This document shows, piece after piece, positions 1-1,077 of a stretch of 24,334 nt of DNA. Each line of letters begins with the position of its first letter. The first letter of the stretch is position 1. Source of the DNA: a virus; the IMG/VR virus record IMGVR_UViG_3300048834_001380, positions 1-24,334 of that record; one strand, given 5' to 3'. The notes under the pieces are model-generated. The model had not been told where the DNA came from, searched no databases, and worked only from the letters and a program-made list of their open reading frames with translations. Position numbers and translations under genes: made by a program.

Positions 1-525
1 GGATCGTTCAAGCCCGGCGGCAACCTCGCCCCCGAGCACCCCCAGCCGATCGTGGTCGAGGCCACGCCGGAGGCGGGCGCGGTGTTCGATGCGCTCGCCG
101 CGATGGTGGACGCCGAGCTTGGCAAGCCGGACGAGACGGGGCGGTCGCTGTGGGCGCGGGCCGAGGAGAAGGCCTGCCGACTCGCCCTCATCTACGCCTG
201 CTCCGCGAACGCTCCGAAGCCGGTGATCGATGAGGACGCCGCCCGTTGGGCATGCGAGCTGTCGTCGTACCTGACGCGGCGGATGCTCTACATCGCCCAC
301 GAATGGGTCGCCGACGGCGTCTTCGATGCGAGGCAGAAGCGAGTGGTCCGGGTAGTGCGCAAGGCGGGTGGAAAGATCTCCCGCAGTGAACTCTGCCGCA
401 AGACGCAGTGGCTGACCCAGCGGGAGCGGCAGGAAGTGATCGACAACCTCTTGGAAACCCAGCAGTTGCGGCAGGAGGAGGAATCCTCCGCGACGCGGCC
501 GAAGGTGGTGTATGCGCTGCCCTGA
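1..525 (+). CDS. DUF3987-type phage replication helicase/primase-like protein, C-terminal part
   Basis: The frame is open from base 1, so the gene begins before the window and only about 174 C-terminal residues are visible. A GTG at 52 lies in frame but is unlikely to be the true start. The segment LWARAEEKACRLALIYACS followed by a helical stretch is what I recognise from the C-terminal region of DUF3987 proteins, which combine with primase or helicase domains in phage and plasmid replication genes. The ATPase motifs would lie upstream, outside the window. Residues near the end (KISRSELCRKTQWLTQRERQEV) look like a small winged-helix DNA-binding tail. It is followed by a non-coding stretch with paired repeats, in keeping with a replication locus. 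Family placement is from memory of the motif; the precise activity is inferred. Confidence 0.65.
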   Translation, partial: GSFKPGGNLAPEHPQPIVVEATPEAGAVFDALAAMVDAELGKPDETGRSLWARAEEKACRLALIYACSANAPKPVIDEDAARWACELSSYLTRRMLYIAHEWVADGVFDARQKRVVRVVRKAGGKISRSELCRKTQWLTQRERQEVIDNLLETQQLRQEEESSATRPKVVYALP

Positions 526-1077
526 ACCGAATCTTTCAATCTTTCACCTGTTCACCGCGCGCGCAAGCGGTACGCGCGGGCACGGGCGTAAGGGAGGTAT
601 TGAAAGATTGAAAGATCTCTCTCTTTCATCATGTACTTCCCCCCTCCCGCCCCGCCGCCCCCATGCAGGTCGCGTGCCAGGGAGCGCCTACCGCGAGCCC
701 AACAGCCGCAAGCCTAACGGCGGGGGCAAGGGGGTCGGTAGGTACTTCCCCGCCTGCGTCGCGTTGCTACGCCCGCGGGAACAGCCGCGCTTGGCGACAG
801 AGTTTGTTTCGCGCGTCCGGGCGGGGGACGAGCGTCTGGCGGGGGTGGTACGCCGCGTCGCGAGGAACGCGACGTGGGCCAACGTGGGCGGACCCGTGGC
901 CAACGGGCGTGGCCCGTAGCGGCGGGGAATCGGGCGGATGAGCCGCCCCGGACGGGCCCGTAGCCTGAGCGATCCATCAAGCGAGCCAGCGATCCCCGGA
1001 CCCGTCGGCATGTGCCGCGGGCCATGACGACGCCCCCGCGCCGGCGCATGCCGCCGCGCGCTTCGACGGAGATCGCC
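526..1077. other. Non-coding stretch between replication gene and methyltransferase
   Basis: About 550 bases with no convincing gene. Frames are open here mainly because of base composition, and none shows a recognisable protein pattern. Besides the inverted repeat at 531-616, it holds a pyrimidine-rich tract (about 638-662) and the decamer GTACTTCCCC twice (633-642 and 742-751). It also holds a perfect hairpin (856-874, stem CGTCGCG, loop AGGAA) and an imperfect direct repeat of the form GTGG(G)CCAACG at about 875-910. A replication origin, promoter or packaging site could sit here, but nothing decides between them. Confidence 0.5.
531..616. repeat. Perfect 16-bp inverted repeat, each arm a doubled 8-bp unit
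   Basis: The left arm at 531-546 reads ATCTTTCAATCTTTCA and the right arm at 601-616 reads TGAAAGATTGAAAGAT, an exact reverse complement. Each arm is two direct copies of the octamer TGAAAGAT (or its complement), so four copies are present. A partial copy, CTCTTTCATC, follows at about 621-630. The arms are 54 bp apart, separated by very GC-rich sequence, and the AT-rich arms stand out strongly. It begins five bases after the replication gene stops. Candidate roles are iterons of a replication origin, a regulator binding site, or a long stem-loop at the 3' end of the transcript. Confidence 0.8.

Follow-up and report, generated by a model that had tools for sequence, protein, structure and literature searches.

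Why should phage DNA carry a perfect inverted repeat directly behind a helicase gene? The question was raised by the window, that is, the whole stretch of 24,334 nt that was analysed here. The original prediction had described four exact octamers set head to head as a perfect 16-bp inverted repeat, AT-rich in a GC-rich background, unlikely by chance and within bases of the stop of a replication helicase gene, and each of these points held in our analysis. The octamer TGAAAGAT occurred exactly four times in the window (0.22 expected), at 531–538 and 539–546 on the minus strand and at 601–608 and 609–616 on the plus strand, and none of 100 dinucleotide shuffles of the window reached four copies. 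The two arms were 100% complementary over their 16 nt and were separated by 54 nt; GC content was 25% in either arm, against 70% for the spacer and 68% for the window. The stop codon of the upstream open reading frame (ORF) is at 523–525, and the left arm starts 5 nt later (Table 1). This ORF matched DUF3987 (PF13148), and 'replication helicase' is a fair name for it because its full-length relatives are Prim-Pol plus DUF3987 proteins. From sequence comparison, we consider it probable that the inverted repeat is the core of a replication origin, read by the winged helix of the phage's own DUF3987 protein and serving head-to-head helicase loading in the manner of SaPI and pRN1.

Table 1. Features at the start of the window, with the evidence for each.
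Feature	Position	Strand	Evidence
DUF3987 primase-helicase (initiator) gene, 3′ part	1–525	+	PF13148, E 1.7e-7; 5′ end cut by window edge
C-terminal winged-helix domain, putative origin reader	319–522	+	AlphaFold2 pLDDT 89; Foldseek winged-helix matches
Ser codon, column X in IS-R-X-E-L, tracks TTCA versus GTCA	385–387	+	best of 289 columns
Left iteron pair, two TGAAAGAT octamers	531–546	-	mean identity to window 0.99, 16 close relatives
GC-rich spacer between iteron pairs	547–600	.	mean identity 0.84, 16 close relatives; length variable among relatives
Right iteron pair, two TGAAAGAT octamers	601–616	+	mean identity 1.00, 16 close relatives
Conserved pyrimidine-rich flank CTCTCTCTTTCATC	617–640	+	mean identity 0.92, 16 relatives; several relatives TATA-rich there

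No clear AT-rich opening element was found in the window, the spacer itself being GC-rich; the flank at 617–640 is possibly part of an opening region. A GATC at 614–617 overlaps the end of the right arm. The stretch from the iterons to the next clear gene (640–1005) was conserved and contained the blocks GGTACTTCC, CCGCGGGAACAGC and GACAGAGTTTGTTT, which were also found behind DUF3987 genes with different iterons (for example L148, L170, L226 and L387); it may represent a site for packaging, an RNA with a regulatory role or an additional element of the origin. That next gene (1012–2454) encodes a ParB_N-methylase and is followed by genes for a large terminase, portal, capsid and tail tube, which identify the window as a tailed phage.

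The upstream protein was then characterized by structure prediction. Its C-terminal 126 residues were modelled as helices and a winged helix, and the top Foldseek matches of this model were winged-helix proteins, most of them DNA-binding (probability 1.00, with modest E values of 0.007–0.07); a PDB sequence search with the C-terminal profile gave no convincing match (best E 0.05). The full-length relative L007 was modelled as a Prim-Pol domain, an AAA+ motor and a winged helix. The best solved matches of its motor were MCM helicases (E 1.5e-5), and PriRep1 bound to double-stranded DNA was also among its structure matches (E 2e-3); as the alignments covered the chain only in part, TM-scores were low. 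The DUF3987-family profile matched the Prim-Pol domain of ORF904 in the PDB (E 8e-6). The order Prim-Pol, AAA+ helicase and C-terminal winged helix, as in the PrimPol-PV1 type, was thus seen in full-length relatives, while the window holds the C-terminal part only. Such proteins are common: 492 of 50,697 phage records matched a single DUF3987 protein.

An inverted repeat behind a stop codon could be nothing more than an RNA 3′ end, a hairpin that terminates or protects the helicase transcript, and this was a case that the original prediction had named against itself. The plus strand folded well (-43.1 kcal mol−1, z -3.9), but the minus strand folded nearly as well (z -3.6), since any inverted repeat must. 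An Rfam scan of the window returned no family at E≤1, and no T-run lies directly past the stem. Moreover, a hairpin needs neither tandem octamers nor boxes that follow a protein residue, and it leaves the tandem units, extra unpaired repeats and a distant repeat set in another record (see below) without explanation. On the two-strand folding, the Rfam result and the comparison of arms, an RNA hairpin was rejected as the main explanation, and we regard it as very improbable.

We found that the 16-mer recurs in at least 119 stretches of the viral collection. Among the matches listed, many AT-rich records had lone copies and GC-rich records mostly had paired or inverted octamers. DUF3987 was present in 27 of the 50 16-mer-bearing records tested, namely one AT-rich record, G011, and all GC-rich records that carried paired inverted repeats, the sole exception being L109, in which the contig stops inside the gene, 209 nt past the site. 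Four other AT-rich records (L006, L008, L010 and L077) had no DUF3987 match although they carried the 16-mer and, at a distance of 51 nt, a single inverted 7-mer; this counts against the origin reading. The G011 record is 85 kb long. Its DUF3987 gene runs to 12292, and the iterons shared with the window are found about 17 kb away, at 29259–29567, so linkage alone does not account there for the match between repeats and reader. Near the DUF3987 gene of this record (L122, 4677–6509), a protein consists mostly of ~23-residue repeats of the TSLPDNMSVGGYLDLRNTAI type.

Protein-guided scans provided 80 loci from genomes, mainly of Phycisphaerales and Rhodobacteraceae, and 80 from viruses; single-protein scans with the L174 and G011 proteins gave two loci and one locus, respectively. 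Paired inverted repeats stood at the same spot in relatives from Phycisphaerales, Rhodobacteraceae and other phages. They were present in relatives with the same gene order, from which the original prediction had said their absence would speak against it. GC skew, also proposed there as a check, showed no switch at the site and was uninformative. In 15 whole genomes picked for carrying DUF3987 genes, TTGAAAGATTGAAAG had 16 sites in 12 genomes, and all 16 lay 11–150 nt 3′ of a DUF3987 match (distances computed from contig ranges, with contigs assigned by coordinates). Its reversed control had no occurrence in the same 15 genomes, and the paired form was found nowhere else in them. A motif-free test gave the same picture: an excess of repeated 7-mers over shuffles (p≤0.05) was seen behind DUF3987 genes in 35 of 63 non-redundant regions. 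The corresponding counts were 3 of 57 for regions lying further downstream and 21 of 229 for those following other long ORFs (L219 and L263, read in the wrong frame, and L285 are left out). Among eight regions read from cultured phages, plain repeats were seen in L368 and L374, and the other six had none or were unclear. As a separate observation, the contigs of L161, L173, L174, L226, L232, L234 and L236 terminate 0–350 nt past the DUF3987 stop codon, which would fit a break of assemblies or of phage genomes near this region.

Could the repeat instead be an operator, as the original prediction had also allowed? The helicase or another regulator would then bind it and control the methylase gene that starts near 1012. 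The site does sit between the two genes, and a methylase gene follows DUF3987 in G011 and Roseobacter phage CRP-902 as well. However, the repeats of G011 are far from the DUF3987 gene, other families have other downstream genes, and the residue that tracks the box is in the helicase itself. We therefore judge this explanation quite improbable, although control of transcription may be a second role of the repeats. More generally, a DNA methylase gene adjoins DUF3987 in several distant lineages (1012–2454 in the window, 3293–4096 in L122 and 3778–4332 in L370).

A common plan was seen across families: tandem units in one orientation, a spacer and units in the other orientation, often with a third set. 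The units included TTCAAT boxes with a period of 8, GTCAAT boxes, TTCACTT boxes with a period of 9 and, in distant families, CTTCCGTCA, GGAATTC, GAATAGTGG, TTATTGC, AATAATCG and others. In L146, L156, L172 and L225, the third set consisted of one to three boxes in one orientation, ~150–200 nt past the stop and outside the inverted repeat. For these comparisons 65 representatives, with L219 and L263 still among them, were drawn after removal of open-ended ORFs and short flanks (143 of 160 kept). New loci comprised 41 with contigs new to the analysis plus L284 and L285, and later 41 of 80 more; the gene was missed by the ORF finder in 23 of 30 loci, four of which could be read with a looser finder, and loci left unread enter no count.

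These comparisons bear on a third alternative, that the origin acts as an extruded DNA stem-loop known by its shape, with box sequence mattering little. This has been proposed for pRN1, in which, according to PMC4234260, replication requires a ~100-bp stem-loop situated immediately 3′ of an AEP-helicase-winged-helix gene, and symmetry-restoring mutations are tolerated. A 16-bp stem with a 54-nt loop occupies the corresponding spot in the window. In 51 relatives the start-to-start distance of the arms, both readable, was 52–102 nt, and the free bases agreed between arms at 101 of 204 positions. Shuffled partners gave 82.1, and 1 of 2,000 shuffles reached the observed number. A weak tendency towards symmetry thus exists; relatedness may be its cause, and a hairpin would also give it. 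Nevertheless, perfect arms, identical at all four variable bases, were found in only 6 of the 51 relatives, a count for which the search pattern required the cores, so the perfect symmetry of the original prediction applies to the window but not as a general trait. What was kept across relatives was the TTCAAT core and its spacing rather than perfect arm symmetry. The core remains TTCAAT or GTCAAT, further repeats lie outside the stem, and the box follows one residue of the reader domain. Recognition by shape is consequently unlikely in our estimation.

Under the reading that we prefer, an origin bound by the winged helix, the boxes would be expected to vary with this domain. Arg stands at position X in six of the 65 representatives; these six together contain 20 copies of GTCAAT, and the remaining 59 contain none. 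In L148, L225 and L226, the motors are 91–94% identical over 450 residues and the C-terminal 65 residues 68–75% identical, and the boxes are GTCAAT, TTCAAT and TTCACTT, respectively. For motors at least 78% identical, the C-terminus lay 16–27 points below the motor if boxes differed and 1–9 points below if they were the same, in pairs that are mutually non-independent. On a tree of the motor alone (built without the C-terminus and excluding L219, L263, L183 and L257, the last two lacking the motif), residue and box each changed four times; in all three independent pairs on supported branches the two changes coincided, a number too small for significance (sign test, p=0.25). These comparisons indicate that the repeat unit changes with the C-terminal winged helix and not with the motor. 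As gene and repeats are neighbours, a cassette of both moved by recombination could mimic such joint change, and the Arg-type C-termini possibly descend from a single ancestor. Both G011 and the finding that the switch recurs on a single motor background speak against joint inheritance as the whole explanation.

We then scanned 289 alignment columns and found that X ranked first for the box (adjusted R2 0.87, with kinship unmodelled), followed by the residue two before X (0.54) and another residue of helix 2 (0.41), with columns outside the winged helix at 0.40 or below. X corresponds to Ser81 of the model and belongs to the first turn of helix 2; the wing contains an ATRP stretch. All 57 non-redundant loci, 16 of them new, followed one pattern: TTCA with Ser, Thr or Gly at X, and GTCA with Arg or Asn. 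Loci lacking the X..Q motif, including every TR type, enter neither this count nor the column scan. The measure, GTCA/(GTCA+TTCA) within 300 nt, was picked after the new loci had been viewed. In the first set it was 0.91 for Arg (n=5) and 0.14 for others (n=36), and among the 16 new loci the 12 with Arg/Asn gave 0.82 and the four with Ser/Thr 0.18 (p=0.002). Separation was complete because the lowest Arg/Asn value (0.62) exceeded the highest other value (0.43), and in the same loci there was no TTCA/GTCA difference at 600–900 nt after the stop. Arg alone had been named beforehand, and 6 of 6 new loci with Arg exceeded 0.7; Asn was joined to Arg afterwards.

Four predictions (P1–P4) were written before further loci were fetched. 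The strict hexamer form of P1 (at least two TTCAAT and no GTCAAT) held in none of the four new non-redundant loci (L299, L321, L331 and L483), and that of P2 in two of three new in-scope loci (L435 and L436, not L475). These strict rules fail because distant families keep TTCA or GTCA but have other bases after it. P3, that TR in the turn gives TTTG boxes, was rejected, with no TTTGCAT in L305, L317, L343, L323, L354, L386 or L387; L348-type loci carry GTTTGC. The wing rule of P4 held in L378, the sole new locus bearing clearly on it. What the sequences themselves show, then, is that the repeats exist, where they lie, that they recur and that they change jointly with the winged helix. The iteron reading of the original prediction is supported, since the repeats recur behind DUF3987 genes of related phages and prophages, are confined in their paired form to this site within the 15 genomes, and change along with the DNA-reading domain of the helicase.

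How such an origin might work is a proposal: binding of the boxes, assembly of rings, DNA opening, priming and use as an origin are all inferred, with the steps after box recognition taken from related systems. Each arm would represent a tandem pair of 8-bp iterons, a TTCAAT core with two free bases, and the winged helices of several DUF3987 protomers would bind the four boxes. The head-to-head pairs would position two sets of protomers and hence two opposed helicase rings, a picture modelled on MCM double hexamers and on a suggestion for SaPI Rep. Opening of the DNA would take place next to the right arm, a position that is TATA-rich in several relatives, and the Prim-Pol domain of the same protein would prime. 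A comparable system is satellite phage P4, whose alpha protein is an initiator-primase-helicase with a winged-helix origin domain and whose ori and crr carry octamer iterons in both orientations; its primase type differs from that of the DUF3987 protein.

Other parallels come from published work. PMC5862659 treats DUF3987 as a predicted helicase and suggests that the C-terminal winged helices of such primases might recognize origins. SaPI and PICI origins, as described in PMC7581432 and PMC6092414, lie directly 3′ of rep and have iterons, and the initiator helicase has a C-terminal origin-reading domain (PMC6092414), a role that we assign to the domain here by inference. The window shares two sets of short iterons and the place 3′ of the gene, which is also seen in relatives with the exception of G011. 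However, SaPI and PICI iteron sets flank an AT-rich stretch whereas the spacer of the window is GC-rich, those elements are satellites whereas we deal with tailed phages and prophages that, in the window, encode their own virion and packaging proteins, and the motor is DUF3987 with Prim-Pol, unlike SaPI/PICI Rep. ORF904 of pRN1 is similar in combining an AEP primase, a helicase and a C-terminal winged helix, with a stem of similar size 3′ of the gene. The authors of PMC4234260 saw no iterons and argued for a stem-loop, whereas here tandem boxes are kept and symmetry mostly is not; the same paper proposes pRN1-like stem-loop origins for some phages and compares P4 with pRN1. In PLE RepA replicons of Vibrio, reader domain and origin iterons likewise covary and are swapped as modules on a conserved remainder, although RepA belongs to another protein family with an N-terminal reader and iterons of ~30 bp, and covariation was tested there by swaps and here by sequence comparison (PMC8263062). 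DUF3987 serves only as a marker in the accessible part of PMC10803314, and a search of the open-access literature, with subscription papers outside its scope, found no report of DUF3987 iterons or of a residue–base rule.

Taken further, these data lead to a proposal to which we give about an even chance: that a single residue at the start of helix 2 sets one iteron base (G for Arg/Asn, T for Ser/Thr/Gly), that the wing sets the second half of the unit and the 8- or 9-bp period, and that exchange of C-terminal domain and origin on a near-unchanged motor creates many incompatible replicons, possibly as an escape from attack on the origin of the kind seen in PLE and ICP1. Although common in phages, DUF3987 still carries the name 'domain of unknown function', and the result proposes what its C-terminus reads and where replication would start. 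So simple a rule would allow origins to be predicted from protein sequence, and near-identical natural motors with different readers offer material for a clean test of specificity. It also becomes testable whether pRN1-like 'stem-loop origins' are head-to-head binding sites.
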